Origin: Armatimonadota bacterium
GTDB taxonomy: Bacteria > Armatimonadota > Fimbriimonadia > Fimbriimonadales > Fimbriimonadaceae
Direction: 5' to 3'
Assembly (NCBI GenBank): GCA_029781035.1
Contig: JAKOXK010000077.1
Span: 1-64,000 of the forward strand
DNA length: 64,000 nt
A program made the position numbers and the translations under genes. Under the pieces are notes generated by a model. That model searched no databases. It was not told the DNA's origin and saw nothing but the letters and a program-made list of their open reading frames with translations. This document shows, piece after piece, positions 11,794-37,789 of the stretch (its first letter is position 1; each line of letters starts with the position of its first letter).

Positions 11794-12681
11794 CTACTGG
11801 CTGAAGTCGTAGTCGGGGCGGAACAGCCAAGCGTGGCAGCCGTCCCACCAGTAGTAACCGGGGAAGCCATTGGCGTCGTAACCGGTGTACGGGTCGGTCT
11901 TGTAGTCGGTGTCGCCGGGGGTCAAGGTCGAACCGAGGGCTCGATACTTGGCGTGACCGTCGGTGAAGGCCATGTTGGCGCCCTTGCTGTAGGACCAGAT
12001 CGATCCGCTCAGGACGAACATGACGCTCTGCTGACCGTTCTTGCTGGCCGAACAGCCAGATGCAGACGGAACGTAGGTGCAAGGAATGTTCGCTTGCGGG
12101 CACTCAAGGGCCGGGTTCGCAAGGACAGCACCATCGACGTTGGCTTTGCCGCGGCCGCCCCAAACCATGGGGAGCTGCGCCGGGGCAGCGATTCCGCTCG
12201 AACCGTAACCCATCAACAGGCCGTTGTAGGTCATGTTCGAGTTGCCTTTCGGCTTCGTACCGAGCAGCGCGTTGGACGCACCGGTCGTAACGAGCGGGAG
12301 GCCGGGACCGGAAGCCACTTGGATGTTCTTGCAGTAGGGCTGGATCGTGTTGGCCCATGCCACACGAGAGGAGTAGATCCTCACGGAGTAGCCGCCATCA
12401 CCGCCAGCGCCGGCTGGCCAGTCCGCCGGGAAGTACTGGTTGTAGTTCCAAGCGAATCCTTGGTTGTCGCCCAGCAGGCCAAAGGCGAGCGGGAAGACGT
12501 CGTCCGAGTCGGGCAAGTACTGCATGAACGCAAGCGCGATCTGCTTGTGGTTGGAAAGGTCCGCGGACTTCTTAGCGGCGTCTTTCGCCTGGGCGAAGAC
12601 CGGGAACAGAATGGCTGCCAGGATCGCGATGATCGCGATGACAACCAAGAGCTCGATGAGCGTGAACGCTCGCTTTACCAT
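11794..12681 (-). CDS. Type IV prepilin-like protein (DUF1559-style), copy 1
   Basis: [39 protein letters not shown] prepilin N-terminus; FTDGHAKY near C-terminus; SD GAGGAGAAA. Confidence 0.92.
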
Positions 12682-12965: not shown

Positions 12966-13853
12966 CTAGTAGCTGAAGTCATAGTCGGGGCGGAACAGCC
13001 ATGCATGGCATCCGTCCCACCAATAGCTCGCCGGGAACCCGTTCACGTCGTAGCCGGTGTACGGGTCGTTCTTATAGTCGGTGTCGCCAGGAGTCAGCGT
13101 CGCGCCGAGTGGACGATACTTGGCGTGGCCGTCGACGAACGCCATGTTGACGCCCTTGCTATAGGCCCATGCCGTTCCGCTCAGAACGAACATGACGCTC
13201 GTCTGACCGTTGATGCCTGCCGAGCATCCACTGACGGACGGGACGTACGTGCAGGGGACTTTGGCTTGAGGGCACTGCATTGCCGGGTTCGCTAGGACCG
13301 CGCCGTCCATGTTGGCCTTACCGCGACCGCCCCACACCATCGGGAGCTGGGCAGGAGCAGCCACGCCAGCGGACGAGTAGCCCATCAGCAAGCCGTTGTA
13401 GGTCATGTTTGAGTTGCCCTTTGGAGCTCCGCCAGGAGCCGCGTTGGAGGCGCCTGTCGTTACGAGGGGCAGACCGGGGCCGGAAGCGACCTGGATGTTC
13501 TTGCAATAGGGCTGAATCGTGTTGGCCCATGCCACGCGGGAGGAGTAGATCCTCGACGCATAGCCGCCGTCACTGCCGGCGCCGGACGGCCAGTTCTGCG
13601 GGAAGTACTGGTTGTAGTTCCATGCGTAAGCCTGGTTGTCACCGAGGAGTCCGAACGCCAGCGGGAACATGTCGTCGGAGTCGGGCAGGTACTGCATGAA
13701 GGCCAGGTCGATCTGCTTATGGTTGGACAGGTCCGCGGACTTCTTTGCGGCGTCTTTCGCCTGGGCAAAGACCGGGAACAAGATAGCGGCGAGGATCGCA
13801 ATAATGGCGATAACGACCAAGAGCTCGATGAGCGTGAACGCTCGTTTAACCAT
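12966..13853 (-). CDS. Type IV prepilin-like protein (DUF1559-style), copy 2
   Basis: Same length (295 aa) and highly similar throughout to 11794..12681. Confidence 0.92.
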
Positions 13854-26111: not shown

Positions 26112-27335
26112 ATGCGCTGGGTCGCCTTAGCCTTGTTCGTGGCGGCGGGCTGCGCCAAAGCGCCTGCTCCCAGGTATCGGGACAGTCTGGCCACGGTCGT
26201 GACGCACCCGACAGGAAAGAACGGGTACGAGGACTTTGTTCGTGCCGCCAAGCTGACGAACAGCCCTGCTTTTCGTCGGAGACTGCAGCTTTGTGCCACT
26301 ACGACGGGCCCACAGGCGAACACCTTGCGACGGGCACTGGTCTCGGACTATGGAGCCGTCTTTAAAGACATTCAAGACGGGCTCTCGAAGCCCGTTATGT
26401 ACACGATCGCAAAGCCGACAGCGATGACGTTGTTCCCTGAACTGTCCGAGTTCAAGGCGATCGCCAAACTCATGATCGTGAAAGCCGAGGTCGAATTCGC
26501 GGAAGGTCAGCAGGACGCGGCGGCGAGCACTCTGGCTCAAGTTCTCGACTTCGCACGGGTCGTCCGACCGACCAACGGCGTCGTCCACTATCTCGTCGCG
26601 ATCTCGATGGAGTCTCTTGGCTGTTCGGCCGTCGCCAACCATCTTGGAGAACTGAGCGTGCGTGGAGCGAAAAGTCTTGAAGCTGCTGCGGACCGCTCGT
26701 TGCACGAAAGTGGTCTGCAGTCGGTGATCGAGACGGAGTTCACCATGCTCGACCGGTCGCTGGCTGCGATTGCCGACCGAATGCGAGGGTTCACGCCACA
26801 AGACCGGGCGAGGAGCACCGAGGAAGAGGATCTTGCCGCCAAGTCGTGGGGTGCAGGCGCATCGTCGGCTCAGGGTGGCTTCAGCACTGTCAGCCGTCAG
26901 AAGTACCGAGAAGCTGCCGACGCCGCCGAGTCACTTCTGAGTCGGCCGGAGTCGGAGTGGTCGGCCGCGATCGGATCATCGCCCACAGAGTATTTGGACG
27001 TCAACAGCGCCGAATCGATGGCGATCGACAAGGCTGGACTGAGCGTCCCCTCGGCTGGGGGTACAGTTCTTGTCGAGCTCAAACATCGGGCGCGAATGCG
27101 GATCCTCCGGCTCATCTGCCGGGTCATCGTCTATCGTGGCGAGCACAAGAAACTGCCTCCTGCACTCGCATCTGTCGCTGACGGGCCGACGCGTTTTGAT
27201 CCCATTACGGGAAGAGACTTCCGATACGAGGTCTTTCCAGACCATTTCGAGTTGTACACTGGAGGAACAGGGGTCACCGGCAGGATCGATCTTGCCAACC
27301 GCAAGGTGAAGGTGGCCATAAAGGCTGCCCAATGA
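26112..27335 (+). CDS. Unknown lipoprotein, tandem paralog 1
   Basis: Lipobox LFVAAGC; THPTGKNGYEDFVRAA; C-terminal KLPPALASV..FDPITGRDFRYEV. Confidence 0.75.
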   Translation: MRWVALALFVAAGCAKAPAPRYRDSLATVVTHPTGKNGYEDFVRAAKLTNSPAFRRRLQLCATTTGPQANTLRRALVSDYGAVFKDIQDGLSKPVMYTIAKPTAMTLFPELSEFKAIAKLMIVKAEVEFAEGQQDAAASTLAQVLDFARVVRPTNGVVHYLVAISMESLGCSAVANHLGELSVRGAKSLEAAADRSLHESGLQSVIETEFTMLDRSLAAIADRMRGFTPQDRARSTEEEDLAAKSWGAGASSAQGGFSTVSRQKYREAADAAESLLSRPESEWSAAIGSSPTEYLDVNSAESMAIDKAGLSVPSAGGTVLVELKHRARMRILRLICRVIVYRGEHKKLPPALASVADGPTRFDPITGRDFRYEVFPDHFELYTGGTGVTGRIDLANRKVKVAIKAAQ

Positions 27336-28591
27336 GCGGGAGATACGGGAAGTTCATCGTGGTCGCGGTCACCGTCTTGTCGCAGACGTGTCTGGGACAA
27401 ACAACGATCACTGCTGACAGTCTGTTCGACACAGTGATCGGCCAGGACTCCGGTAAGAACGGTTATGCCGACTTTGTCCGGGCTGCCGGGTTGGCCCTTG
27501 ACCGAGACTTCCAGGAAACGTTGGCGAGGGTTCCTAATCCAGGTGCTCCTGGGTGGCTCACGGGCCAGAGGAACGCGGTGCAAACGCACCTTGAAATCCT
27601 CGATCGCATCGAGGCGGGCTTGCGCAAGCCAGTGCAGTACCCCAACCTAGCTTTTTCGTTGTCACAACGCTTCCCTGAGCTGCCGTTGTTTCGGGACATC
27701 GGCCATTGGCTCGAGTGCAAGGCGAACGTGGACTTTGCTGACGGGGCGCCCGAGAGCGCCGTCGCCAAACTCGCCATGGCACTGGATCTCGGAACAGCGG
27801 TTGCGGCGACCGGTGGTCTCGACCACTACCGGTGTGGTGTGGCCATTCACATGAACGCCCTCGCCACCATCGACCGGAACCTCAGTCGGATCACTCTGGA
27901 GGGCTCCAAGCGGCTGCAACGGTCAGCAGAGCTCGCGCTACGGGCATCCCAATTGACGAACAACCTCGTGACCGAGCGACAGGCCCTCGACAAGTCAGTG
28001 GCCCTCCTGATGGGTTCAGGGATGAAAGACGAACTGGCAAACTTCGGCCTCAAAACATCAACAGACGGCCCGTCGGTCCCGTCGAGGTGGTCCACTCTCT
28101 CGGCTCAGGAGAGACAGACGGTCATGAGCGCCGTACTCACCGAACAAGGTACACGGTTCGACGGGCTGGCAGCGGCCTTGCGGGAGCCGGAATCGACATG
28201 GATTCTGGGCAAGGGATTCCCTGGCCTCGAACCGGAAACCCCATCTGACGAGAGCCCGCTCGGTTTCCTCGTGATGCGGCTCGGAGCGATCGACAAATCA
28301 CTCCTCAAGGTCGAGGCGATGCACAGAGTTAGGTTGCGGCTCCTCCGTCTCCATGCCAAGATCATTGAGTACCGCTGGCGGACGCTCAAACTTCCCACTG
28401 ACCTGGGTCAGCTCCATGACGAAAACGCGGTTAAGGATCCGCTTACCGTTCTTCCGTTCATCTACAAAGTCGATTCCCGCAAATATGAGTTGTTCTCGGC
28501 TGGCGATCCTCAGTCGGGGCCGATCGGACTGGTCGATGCCGCGGCACCCGGACGCCCCAAAGGCGCAGGCACAAGTGGAGGCCATTCATGA
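27332..28591 (+). CDS. Unknown exported protein, tandem paralog 2
   Basis: GQDSGKNGYADFVRAAGL; KLPTDLGQL..VKDPLTVLPFIYKV; ATGA overlap with paralog 1. Confidence 0.75.
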   Translation: MSGRYGKFIVVAVTVLSQTCLGQTTITADSLFDTVIGQDSGKNGYADFVRAAGLALDRDFQETLARVPNPGAPGWLTGQRNAVQTHLEILDRIEAGLRKPVQYPNLAFSLSQRFPELPLFRDIGHWLECKANVDFADGAPESAVAKLAMALDLGTAVAATGGLDHYRCGVAIHMNALATIDRNLSRITLEGSKRLQRSAELALRASQLTNNLVTERQALDKSVALLMGSGMKDELANFGLKTSTDGPSVPSRWSTLSAQERQTVMSAVLTEQGTRFDGLAAALREPESTWILGKGFPGLEPETPSDESPLGFLVMRLGAIDKSLLKVEAMHRVRLRLLRLHAKIIEYRWRTLKLPTDLGQLHDENAVKDPLTVLPFIYKVDSRKYELFSAGDPQSGPIGLVDAAAPGRPKGAGTSGGHS

Positions 28592-29808
28592 GCCTTGTCG
28601 CGGCTATCGTGCTTTTGGCCTGCTCTCAGACCAAGCCGTCGCGCTTTCAGACGGTCTGCCCGCACCCAACAGGACGGAACGGGTACGAGGAGTACCTTCA
28701 AGCAGCTGACTGTGCGCAGGCTCCCGCCTTTCGCGCAGCGCGCACGGCCTACGATGCGGCCATCGCGGCCGGGAGGCCCTGTCTCGATGAAGCCAGGCAA
28801 ATGGTGCGCCTCTCGGGTTCCATCCAGCAGTTGGTCAAGGTCGGAAACCGGAAGCCGGTGAGTGACCCGCGGGTCGACATGGACAACAGCACCGTTTTCA
28901 CGGAGTACGCAGCGTTCAAAGACATTGCCAAGTACCTCGAAAGTGCGGCGAACGTGGACTTTGCCGAGGGTCGTCCCCGTCAGGGCGCCGAAACGCTGAC
29001 CGACGGAATCGTCTTCGCGGAGCGGCTTATGAACACAGGCGTTCTGATCACTTACCTTGTCGGGGCTGCTGAACAGTCCATACAGTTGCGTGGCTTTGCC
29101 AACCACTTGAGCGAAATCCCCGTTGCCGAGGATCGCTCCATCGCTTCGTTGTGTGACGCGTGGATCGGACAAAACCCCTTGGCGGGAACGTTTGCCAAGG
29201 AGACGAGATACACCAGCAAAGCCCTGGCGGACATGATCCAAAACCCCTCTTCGATCAGCGACTGGGGCGTCGACGAGGATGGATCGCTTTCGGCCTTGAG
29301 CCAGGAAGTTCAGAAGCTGGGGCCAGCCGGTCGAGCCCAACTTCTCAAGGAAATGACCGACAAGATGGCAGATTACAGCCATCGCATCATCGCGGTCCTT
29401 GGTTCACCCGAGCCAGAGTGGCCACAGCTCGTCCCCAAGCTGATCGGCGAGGACCCTGGAAGGGCCGGATCACTCGCGACTCGGCTCTGTCAGCTCGTCC
29501 TGCCAGTCTATGGGCAGGTTTTTGCCGCCGAACTCAAACGGCGCACGCAACTCAGGCTATTACGCCTCCACCTGCTCGTCGAAGCCAAGCGGTTGGAGAC
29601 CGGCGTCTTGCCCACGTCCCTAGCGGAACTCAACGATCAGAACCTCGTCAGGGATCCCGTGAACGGTAGGGAGTTTGTGTACGTGCCTCGTGGCCGCTAC
29701 TACGAGCTCTACAGCCTGGGAAACGGACTCATCAACCGCATGGATCTCGTGTACAAAGCCTCCGCGGCCGCGGATTCTGCTTCCCCGCAGGTCACGATCC
29801 GGCCATAA
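28588..29808 (+). CDS. Unknown lipoprotein, tandem paralog 3
   Basis: Lipobox VLLAC; HPTGRNGYEEYLQAA; VLPTSLAELN..VRDPVNGREFVYV; ATGA overlap with paralog 2. Confidence 0.75.
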   Translation: MSLVAAIVLLACSQTKPSRFQTVCPHPTGRNGYEEYLQAADCAQAPAFRAARTAYDAAIAAGRPCLDEARQMVRLSGSIQQLVKVGNRKPVSDPRVDMDNSTVFTEYAAFKDIAKYLESAANVDFAEGRPRQGAETLTDGIVFAERLMNTGVLITYLVGAAEQSIQLRGFANHLSEIPVAEDRSIASLCDAWIGQNPLAGTFAKETRYTSKALADMIQNPSSISDWGVDEDGSLSALSQEVQKLGPAGRAQLLKEMTDKMADYSHRIIAVLGSPEPEWPQLVPKLIGEDPGRAGSLATRLCQLVLPVYGQVFAAELKRRTQLRLLRLHLLVEAKRLETGVLPTSLAELNDQNLVRDPVNGREFVYVPRGRYYELYSLGNGLINRMDLVYKASAAADSASPQVTIRP

Positions 29809-29913: not shown

Positions 29914-30471
29914 ATGATTGCGTTCTCAACGGACTTGGTGCCTCCAGTCCATGACTCGAGGAGCGGTTTTTTGGCGGGCACCCGTCCGACTGACTTTGAG
30001 AAGGCTGTAGTCGGGGAACTGGCCGTCTTGTACCGCGTTGCAAGGCGTATGGGCGCCAGTCCGGAGGAGTCCGAGGATTTGGTCCAGACGACGATGGTGA
30101 AGGCCTTTCGCAAGTGGCATCAATTCGATGGTAGGTTCCTGAGGAGCTGGCTGGTGCGGATCCTTCGCAACGAGCGTATGGCCGGGCTTAGAACCCGAAA
30201 ACCTGAAGTGGACTGGGAGGAAGTCACCGAGGACTCGGTCGTGGAGGAGCCCTTTTGGGGCACGGTCGAGACGAACATGGAAGCAGAGCGCATCCTGGCC
30301 GCATTGGACGGCCTGCCCGAGCCGTATCGCACCATGGTGCAACTGTGCGATGTGGAACAGATGAGCTACGAGGAAGCTGCTGTCGCGATGGAGATTCCGA
30401 TTGGGACGGTAAGGTCTCGGCTGTTTCGGGCGCGGATCGAGCTCCGAAAGAGGTTGGGGGTGAGTCGGTGA
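29914..30471 (+). CDS. ECF RNA polymerase sigma factor
   Basis: ESEDLVQTTMVKAFRKWHQF region 2; LPEPYRTMVQLCDVEQMSYEEAAVAMEIPIGTVRSRLFRARIELRKRL region 4. Confidence 0.93.
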   Translation: MIAFSTDLVPPVHDSRSGFLAGTRPTDFEKAVVGELAVLYRVARRMGASPEESEDLVQTTMVKAFRKWHQFDGRFLRSWLVRILRNERMAGLRTRKPEVDWEEVTEDSVVEEPFWGTVETNMEAERILAALDGLPEPYRTMVQLCDVEQMSYEEAAVAMEIPIGTVRSRLFRARIELRKRLGVSR

Positions 30472-31181
30472 CTCCGATCGACTGGCAGGCCTATTTGGAC
30501 GGAAGCCTCGGCCCTGAGGACACCGCTCGGGCCAATCAACTCCTCGAGGTCGATCCTCGAGCGAAGTCAGAGTTCGAGGGCCTGAAGGCTCTGAGGGACC
30601 ACCTGTCAGGCCTTGCGCACCTGGAGCCCATCCCGTTTGGCCGTCTGGAATCGGGCATGCGCTCGGTTCGCCGCGTGAAGCGGATCCGGTGGACTCTTGG
30701 AACCGCCGCAGCCGCTGTCGCCTTGACGGCGTTTGGTTTGGCTTTTACAGACTACCATCGGAAGCGGCCCGTGAGGTTCGAGACTTCGGCTCCCTTGGCG
30801 ACGTTGTGTGTGACCAACGCCTCGGAAGTCGCCGACTTTGTCGGTTCGCACGCAGGCTTTTCCTGTCGGTCGTTCGATCCACGGCCCGTTGCCACCGTCA
30901 ACACGGTCAGCTACGGCGCTGGTTGGGTCTGCTACCTCCTCGACGCGAACCGGAAATCGGTCGGTCTTTATGTCCGCAAGCATGACGGGAAGTTGGACTG
31001 GCTTCCCCAACTGTCAGCCGGAGGCTACCGGTACTCAGTGTGCGGTTCCGAACAGACACCGGGGATCGGCTGGGAGCAAGGGAGTTTCGAGTTCTTCTTG
31101 ATCGGTGATTCTTCTGAGGCACTAGCCCGACTGGCGAACGAACTCAGGGAGAAGACTGAGGCCATCGTGCGGGACCAGTAG
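30468..31181 (+). CDS. Putative anti-sigma factor (single TM)
   Basis: GTGA overlap with sigma gene; cytosolic segment then TM WTLGTAAAAVALTAFGLAF then exported domain. Confidence 0.75.
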   Translation: MTPIDWQAYLDGSLGPEDTARANQLLEVDPRAKSEFEGLKALRDHLSGLAHLEPIPFGRLESGMRSVRRVKRIRWTLGTAAAAVALTAFGLAFTDYHRKRPVRFETSAPLATLCVTNASEVADFVGSHAGFSCRSFDPRPVATVNTVSYGAGWVCYLLDANRKSVGLYVRKHDGKLDWLPQLSAGGYRYSVCGSEQTPGIGWEQGSFEFFLIGDSSEALARLANELREKTEAIVRDQ

Positions 31182-35578: not shown

Positions 35579-37789
35579 GTGTCTCGATATGACGTAAAGT
35601 TAAGCGTGGCCCTTACCTTTGCCTTATCGATCGCCTTGCTGGCTGCGAGGCAGGACACGGCGATCACCTACACGACCGTCGCAGTTCCCTTGTCCAAGGC
35701 CCTCGAGGGGATCTCGAAGGTCTGCGGCCAGAAGCTTGTGGCCAGCCCAGTTGTCGCTAACGACATCGTGATCGTGAATTTCGAGAAGGTCTCGGTCGAA
35801 GAGGCCAAGAAGCGCCTCGCCAGTGCCGTGACGGGTACTTGGCAGACCGATCCAGACGGGACACAGTACCTCACGGCCGACGAGCCGGCGCGCAACGCCG
35901 AGCGGCGGGCAGAACTTGAAGCCAAGACGAAGCAGATCGCCGAAGACCTCAAGAACCTCCAAGCCAGCGCCAAGCGGCCGGCGAAGTCGGACAATACGGA
36001 TCAACCCGACTCGAAGGACCTGCCGTTCGCCTCCTACGACTCGGCCAGCAAACTCATTGCCCAGCTGGCCGCGGGATTGCGAGCCTCAGACTTGGCGGCC
36101 ATTCCCAATGAAGGGCGTGTCGTCTACTCCACGACGCCGAACCAAATGCAGCGGCCGCTGATCGTAAGTGGGCTGTCGGGACTGATCAGCGCGTTCGTGT
36201 CCGCACACAACGAAGAAGTTTCTGCGTACGAGGCAGCCAATCCCACTGGGCAGCCGCTTGACGAAGCCGCTCAGAAGGCGCTCGAGATGTTTGGTGGGTC
36301 GTATGAGGCACCCAAGCGAATCGACAAGCCCGTATCCAAGATCTTGTTGGCTGCTGAGAACCAAGGCATGTTCGGTTTTGGCCCGTCTTCGATCCAACTG
36401 AGCCTCGTCGTTTTCGACTCGGCCGGCAACGTGGTCGCGACGAGCGAGCGACCGTTGATGGGGATGGGAAAGGCGATCTCTGCGATGGGCGTCGATCCTC
36501 AGACAGGTCGGGCGAAAGAGCCCACGGCCAGCACCACCGATCCGTCCCTGAACCTTGACTTTGAACCGAGCAGTCTGACCAAAGAACTCAACGGATTGAT
36601 GAACGTCGTCGGAGGCTTCAATGGCGACCGGAAAGTCAGTCCGGAACTCATGCAGACACTCTTGCACCCGGACGACCACGATCCGCTATCGTTCGGTTTC
36701 TCCGAGGAACTCCTCCAAATCGCTAAGGCTAAGGGACTGAACGTGGTCTGTTGTCCTCCCGACACGGCCGTCCAGCTGATGGGAATGGTCGGTGGCAACC
36801 AGGTCACCAAACTTTCCGTCGCACTCCAGTCGATGCAGGAAAACGCCGATCTGGCTGTCACGATGGCGGACGGATGGCTGACGGTCCGAGCTTCCCGACC
36901 CGTCGAGAGCCGGGAGTCACGGGTTGACCGTGTGTCGTTGGCACGTTTCCTACAGACTGCGTCGAAAGAGACTGTTCCCTCCCTTGACTCACTGGCCGAA
37001 TACGCCATCAAGAACCCACCGCCCTTTGACTCCCCCGCGATCTTGCCGCACTTGATGCTCGTCTGCCCAAACGCCATGAGCGCCGGCATACGGGGCATGC
37101 AGGACTGGAAGATGCTCCGCCTCTATGGACAGTTGGGAGCCTCTGCCCGCAGCGAACTGAGGAGTGGCCGCAGCCTGGCATTCGGAAGTCTCAGCGTCGG
37201 CCAAAGCACGATCGTCCGTCAGATGGTCTATGGTGCAGGGGCCACTTTCGACGTCGGCCCAGTCGACCCGAACAAGAAGAAGGGTCTGTTTGGGCTGTAC
37301 GGCACCACTCTGCCCGGTCAGGTCAAGGACTTTCGCCAAGAGCCCACAGAGCTCCTACCGTCGGGCTTGCCGGCGTTAGGTGGCATCAGCCTGAGCATCA
37401 AGAAAACGAACGTGGTCATACCTGCCAATGCTAAGGGATCGATGCTGGCGATGATGGGAGCGTTGGGCTCTCAAGAGCTCGCCATGTTGTGGGCGTTCTC
37501 GGAAGACCCCAAGATGTCACAACTGAGCACGATGTTCCCAAAACTGGACAAGTTTCAGGTTGGTGACCGTGAAGAACTGACGTTTACTTTGAACCTGGCT
37601 AAGGACGTGCGCCAAGACCACTTCCTGACCGACAGCAAGATCGCAAAGGACGCACCCGTGGTCAGTCGCGACCAACTACCCAAGGCGTTCTTAGACGAGG
37701 TCGCTGACACGATGAAGAAGGTCAAGGAAGGCATCCTGCCGCTCATGAATCCCGGCATGGGTGGACCGCAAGTGCCTCCTCGGTCTTAG
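35579..37789 (+). CDS. Large exported protein of unknown function with N-terminal STN/secretin-like segment
   Basis: Signal peptide; ITYTTVAVPLSKALEGISKVCGQKLVASPVVANDIVIVNFEKVSVEEAKKRLAS resembles STN-type domain; rest unassigned. Confidence 0.5.
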   Translation: MSRYDVKLSVALTFALSIALLAARQDTAITYTTVAVPLSKALEGISKVCGQKLVASPVVANDIVIVNFEKVSVEEAKKRLASAVTGTWQTDPDGTQYLTADEPARNAERRAELEAKTKQIAEDLKNLQASAKRPAKSDNTDQPDSKDLPFASYDSASKLIAQLAAGLRASDLAAIPNEGRVVYSTTPNQMQRPLIVSGLSGLISAFVSAHNEEVSAYEAANPTGQPLDEAAQKALEMFGGSYEAPKRIDKPVSKILLAAENQGMFGFGPSSIQLSLVVFDSAGNVVATSERPLMGMGKAISAMGVDPQTGRAKEPTASTTDPSLNLDFEPSSLTKELNGLMNVVGGFNGDRKVSPELMQTLLHPDDHDPLSFGFSEELLQIAKAKGLNVVCCPPDTAVQLMGMVGGNQVTKLSVALQSMQENADLAVTMADGWLTVRASRPVESRESRVDRVSLARFLQTASKETVPSLDSLAEYAIKNPPPFDSPAILPHLMLVCPNAMSAGIRGMQDWKMLRLYGQLGASARSELRSGRSLAFGSLSVGQSTIVRQMVYGAGATFDVGPVDPNKKKGLFGLYGTTLPGQVKDFRQEPTELLPSGLPALGGISLSIKKTNVVIPANAKGSMLAMMGALGSQELAMLWAFSEDPKMSQLSTMFPKLDKFQVGDREELTFTLNLAKDVRQDHFLTDSKIAKDAPVVSRDQLPKAFLDEVADTMKKVKEGILPLMNPGMGGPQVPPRS

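Follow-up and report, generated by a model that had tools for sequence, protein, structure and literature searches.

Tandem copies of an exported helical protein with a GspG-like C-terminal module in an Armatimonadota genome

The window, a 64,000-nucleotide stretch of an Armatimonadota genome (assembly GCA_029781035.1, contig JAKOXK010000077.1), carries three similar genes in a row on the plus strand. Copy A (26112..27335) encodes 407 aa from the ATG at 26112, and the purD stop codon lies 11 bp upstream. Copy B (27332..28591, 419 aa) shares an ATGA with copy A at 27332-27335, and copy C (28588..29808, 406 aa) shares another with copy B at 28588-28591. In BLASTP comparisons all three pairs aligned over nearly their full length, with identities of 31% (E 8e-36), 30% (E 4e-35) and 26% (E 3e-26). 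This similarity is far beyond chance, and the copies are paralogs, as the initial annotation of this DNA had proposed; its coordinates, its ATGA junctions and its reading of the genes as translationally coupled and exported are likewise supported. The motifs that it listed near the N-terminus, in the middle and near the C-terminus of each protein are real in the A/B/C alignments. The first of these, at the start of the helical domain described below, reads PTGKNGYED in copy A (26208..26234), DSGKNGYAD in copy B (27446..27472) and PTGRNGYEE in copy C (28666..28692), where Asn31 belongs to a position at least 90% conserved in the wider family. About 105 bp downstream of copy C lies a gene for an ECF-type sigma factor (29914..30471, plus strand), recognized by the Pfam domains Sigma70_r2 and r4. 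It overlaps by 4 bp with a plus-strand gene at 30468..31181, whose product has no Pfam match, is conserved in two genomes of the same genus (G001 and G003) and, from its position and one hydrophobic segment, is probably a membrane anti-sigma factor. Scans for promoters and terminators gave signals near chance level.

Two other features of the window were recorded. On the minus strand, tandem pilin-like genes at 11794-12681 and 12966-13853 encode proteins of 295 aa each that are 87% identical; the pair is a recent duplication, and the N_methyl motif was detected in the first of them. A 736-aa exported protein encoded at 35579-37789 belongs to a multi-copy family with no Pfam assignment. We considered its co-location with the triplet and set it aside, because proximity says little for a family with 9 matches in this genome and as many as 20 in a relative.

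Each of the three proteins begins with a segment that resembles an export signal when the sequence is read directly. Copy A has a signal segment with the lipobox-like end VAAGC (26112..26153), copy C has one with the lipobox-like end LLAC (28588..28623), and the signal-peptide-like segment of copy B (27332..27400) lacks an acceptable lipobox. The earlier view of two lipoproteins and one ordinary secreted protein therefore agrees with what is seen by eye in these copies, but lipoboxes are not a family trait: in alignments the short hydrophobic start of most close relatives lacks a cysteine at the lipobox position, and it is the N-terminal hydrophobic segment itself that is near-universal in the wider family. 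The prepilin N-terminus (GFTLIEL type) is absent from A, B and C and present in the genome's own GspG; copies A, B and C should thus not assemble as ordinary pilus subunits.

Searches of the window proteins against Pfam, NCBIfam, PADLOC and PHROGs returned no significant match. A weak NCBIfam match to copy C (E 0.014) and a weak PADLOC match to copy B (E 0.01) were dismissed, and at E up to 10 the window copies matched no Pfam family, TPR families included. The AlphaFold2 model of copy C (mean pLDDT 86.8, pTM 0.86) is all-helical over residues 32-301 (28681..29490, plus strand), with a hairpin at the VDFAEG motif. Past this domain the model predicts one long helix (residues 306-338) followed by three strands, and the tail modelled alone gave a long helix and the same strands. 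The whole copy C model had no significant Foldseek match in the PDB. The helical-hairpin architecture and weak structural matches to TPR proteins recall TPR and other helical repeat proteins, whereas the window copies have neither a significant Foldseek match nor a TPR family match; 'TPR-like' is accordingly an impression drawn from the predicted model.

The tail proved more informative. The GspG-like module spans residues 306-392 in copy C (29503..29763), where it rests on the models and a profile match, and is placed at 27075..27293 in copy A and 28313..28531 in copy B, all on the plus strand, from homology to the copy C module and the match of the family profile to GspG. Profile-profile comparison (hhalign) of three family alignments, two of them with members in common, against an alignment of 15 GspG proteins from relatives gave P values of 7.2e-10, 5.1e-9 and 1.1e-6. 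For each, 40 controls with shuffled columns gave best P values of 0.006, 0.026 and 0.024, and reversed controls failed. When profiles of the wider family were searched against the sequences of the PDB, GspG chains came top, with 2kep at E 1.4e-4 for the whole protein and 5.8e-6 for the tail. The T2SSG model matched 36 of 65 aligned members and TIGR01710 matched 42 of the 65, both at E up to 0.1; the Pfam T2SSG cut-off was reached by two relatives and by no window copy. The window-type profile alone did not find GspG by hmmsearch, and the relationship emerged only in profile-profile comparison. Judged from these profiles, the C-terminal module is in all probability homologous to the head of GspG, the major pseudopilin of the type II secretion system (T2SS).

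A chance likeness, in which the tail converged on a GspG-like form in a family unrelated to pilins, was weighed against this conclusion. The module is short, and it had no significant Foldseek match in the PDB; E values were above 1, and the highest query TM-scores among the matches listed, 0.44, belonged to two type IV pilins. Yet the profile comparisons were controlled, the PDB hits were specific, and an S-x-G-x-D-G loop is common to the wider family and GspG, which makes convergence highly improbable. We therefore retain homology of the tail to the GspG head. The description of the triplet as an unknown family holds insofar as neither Pfam nor NCBIfam places the window copies in a family, and fails for the C-terminal module, which is very probably homologous to the head of GspG/T2SSG.

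The loop itself divides the family. The E. coli GspG loop PGPDGVPNTEDD binds calcium (PMC3396595). Many relatives carry SVGPDGKDDGG at the corresponding position, where the window copies have YTGGTGVTG, FSAGDPQSG and YSLGNGLIN. The motif was found in 1 of 29 window-type members versus 58 of 62 wider relatives, a frequency biased upward in the latter by their having been selected with the calcium-loop peptide. The calcium loop has been lost in the window copies and its motif kept by most wider relatives sampled; the loss suggests that the head of the window copies has become independent of calcium. Like GspG/PulG (PF08334, TIGR01710), the module has a helix, [YL]P-x-x-L-x-x-L, D-P and then Y-S-x-G, and most wider relatives sampled share the loop motif S-x-G-x-D-G. 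Unlike GspG/PulG, the family has no prepilin motif or adjacent membrane helix, its module lies behind about 270 helical residues, and the window copies have neither the calcium loop nor a match to the Pfam model. The tail is therefore probably GspG-related, and the proteins themselves are not GspG. An anatomy in which a signal segment or membrane anchor at the N-terminus is followed by about 270 helical residues and a C-terminal module homologous to the GspG head is very probably correct for these proteins, and it appears to be new: the literature searched, which lay mostly outside subscription journals, holds no description of an anchored helical protein that ends in a GspG-related module.

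One function that such a tail could suggest is that of an accessory to type II secretion or type IV pili, with the anchored GspG-like head binding the pseudopilus or the assembly platform. Besides the homology of the head to GspG, several gene neighbourhoods fit this proposal: in L118 and L119 PilC lies about 100 bp and PilD about 1.4 kb from the family gene, PilB or PilQ is found within 1.7 kb of it in L116 and L048, and PilB-type ATPases were found in 12 of 12 genomes tested. Such neighbours, however, occur at 6 of 122 loci (about 4 independent cases) and not at the window locus; near-complete genomes, G005, G010, G013 and G041 among them, carry the family with no GspG above the Pfam cut-off; and the calcium loop has been lost in the window copies. 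On balance we regard an accessory role as somewhat unlikely.

Of 291 Armatimonadota genomes, 242 were matched by a profile built from 29 window-type proteins. When named genomes were scanned with the wider subtype as query and the calcium-loop peptide as pattern, full-length relatives turned up in Armatimonadota, Planctomycetota, Verrucomicrobiota and Elusimicrobia, and matches to the C-terminal module extended to Sumerlaeota and Acidobacteria. The same kind of scan with copy C alone gave no matches, and the mixed 29-row alignment was too diverse to serve as its query, where the wider subtype succeeded. Copies A, B and C are thus diverged tandem members of a large uncharacterized exported family. 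At 117 loci we counted 24 tandem arrays versus 105 single genes, and a 4-bp overlap in 15 of 39 adjacent pairs. Tandem coupling is therefore a habit of the whole family and not peculiar to the window locus, and members at most loci are nonetheless single-copy and unlinked, the situation that the initial annotation had held to speak against its reading. The window's own genome contains a second family triplet, on contig C71 (L006: 6953-8275, 8335-9711 and 9728-11089), whose products have an N-terminal membrane segment, a longer C-terminus with S-[VT]-G-P-[ND] and most of the calcium-loop motif; further, weaker matches occur beyond both triplets. L151:1-6428 contains four consecutive long family ORFs and, after them, three shorter ORFs that may be fragments; 4-bp overlaps recur along this stretch. 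A further context that recurs for family genes is near an SMC-type gene, in L046, L051, L125 and L126, with an RluD-type gene in three of them (names assigned by eye). A small opposite-strand gene adjoins the family gene in L037:9713-10138, L038:9162-9593 and L036:11240-11698; none was called in the window.

We then compared the locus with those of relatives. The order dnaX, recR, purD, family gene, sigma, anti-sigma, purB is common to the window and G001, and G003 has the same order outside the recR stretch, where gene calling is unreliable. Both of these genomes have one family gene between purD and purB; the G002 contig ends before copies can be counted. In G007, from another genus of the same taxonomic family, purD and purB flank three copies and there is no sigma pair; in G036 a single copy adjoins purD and lies not far from purB, and in G033 four copies lie near purB. 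Copy number thus ranges from one to four across relatives, and it is therefore labile at this locus. Within the genus the triplet is a local variant in a largely preserved gene order.

The initial annotation had suggested that the three copies form a heteromeric surface complex. Translational coupling often accompanies complexes, and other arrays are similarly coupled; but there are one to four copies beside purD or purB, and the copies of other arrays are not one-to-one orthologous. A copy number that varies at one and the same locus speaks against a conserved complex of three fixed parts, and we consider a complex of A, B and C very unlikely.

Between copy C and its syntenic counterparts in G001 and G003 identity is 32-34%, compared with 77-80% for purB, 59-60% for purD and 91% for recR (in G001). 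The family diverges far faster than its neighbours. It does not follow, as had been argued, that the triplication is old because the copies are so different: syntenic genes at 32-34% identity lie beside purB genes at 77-80%, and low identity is no clock in a family that evolves fast. In the tree the single-copy genes of G001 and G003 group with copy C (support 86/88), and copy A groups with copy B (91/89), near the copies of G007 and G036 (90/88). The AU test speaks weakly against a clade of A, B and C (p 0.033), in a tree with long branches, and an old split of the A/B lineage from C, with loss elsewhere, is possible. High divergence should not be read as great age in a fast-diverging family.

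Rapid divergence could also mean that these are fast-evolving, tandem-duplicated surface proteins with no fixed partner, in which the copies provide variety and not a complex. Syntenic genes only 32-34% identical between neighbours at 77-91%, the 24 tandem arrays with up to seven genes or fragments (in L151), and the frequent clustering of copies of one array would all be expected of such proteins. A family gene is nevertheless kept adjoining purD in two genera and the core motifs have been conserved; both indicate that a function is being maintained, and we judge surface variety as the main explanation to be unlikely.

The most suggestive clue to a function came from sigma factor genes. An ECF sigma gene lies directly upstream of 7 of 82 family genes versus 3 of 237 other genes (Fisher p 0.0036), and the two genes overlap in L145, L162, L206 and L209. 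Most members of the family lack a neighbouring sigma gene. The L145 and L162 proteins have about 75-85 N-terminal residues, a hydrophobic segment and the full family domain, and L209 combines an anti-sigma zinc finger (zf-HC2), FecR and a GspG-like tail in one protein. Among ten relatives scanned, zf-HC2 occurred only in L209. The L206:791-3712 and L209:1322-4288 genes, which overlap ECF sigma genes, are large, with FecR, a DUF3352-like stretch and a family-like tail. The match in L209 is to the tail only and the L206 protein is a much larger multi-domain protein, so that both support the tail more than the whole protein. These four proteins resemble membrane anti-sigma and FecR-type ECF regulators in their overlap with an ECF sigma gene and in their layout, in which about 75-95 N-terminal residues are followed by a hydrophobic segment and an outer part, with zf-HC2 and FecR in L209 and FecR in L206. 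The window copies differ: their N-terminus is a signal segment, they have no cytoplasmic sigma-binding N-terminal domain, and the sigma and anti-sigma genes downstream of them form a pair of their own. This arrangement, with the pair after the family gene, is found in the window, G001 and G003, whereas the genes beside purD and/or purB in three genomes of other genera (G007, G036 and G033) have no sigma gene nearby. The ECF link of the window copies is thus one of position and is not kept in other genera.

We tentatively propose that the family senses or relays the state of the envelope. The proteins would be anchored envelope proteins whose helical domain binds a partner or ligand and whose GspG-derived head serves as a docking module. 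A sensing or relay role, though by itself less likely than not, is favoured over its rivals because in several lineages proteins encoded directly behind an ECF sigma gene have these domains as their outer part. Taken jointly, the anatomy and a sensing or relay role make a plausible account that falls a little short of probable. A stronger version, in which recruitment of the pseudopilin head gave rise to a new class of envelope sensor, with GspG-tailed anchored helical proteins controlling ECF sigma factors across Armatimonadota, Planctomycetota and neighbouring phyla and expanding by tandem duplication in the window's lineage, is quite unlikely.

These results give a first domain anatomy for an exported family present in most sampled Armatimonadota and in several phyla mostly known from metagenomes. 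They place what is probably a GspG head in a setting where the ordinary role of filament subunit is unlikely, and the link of some members to ECF sigma factors makes a function testable.
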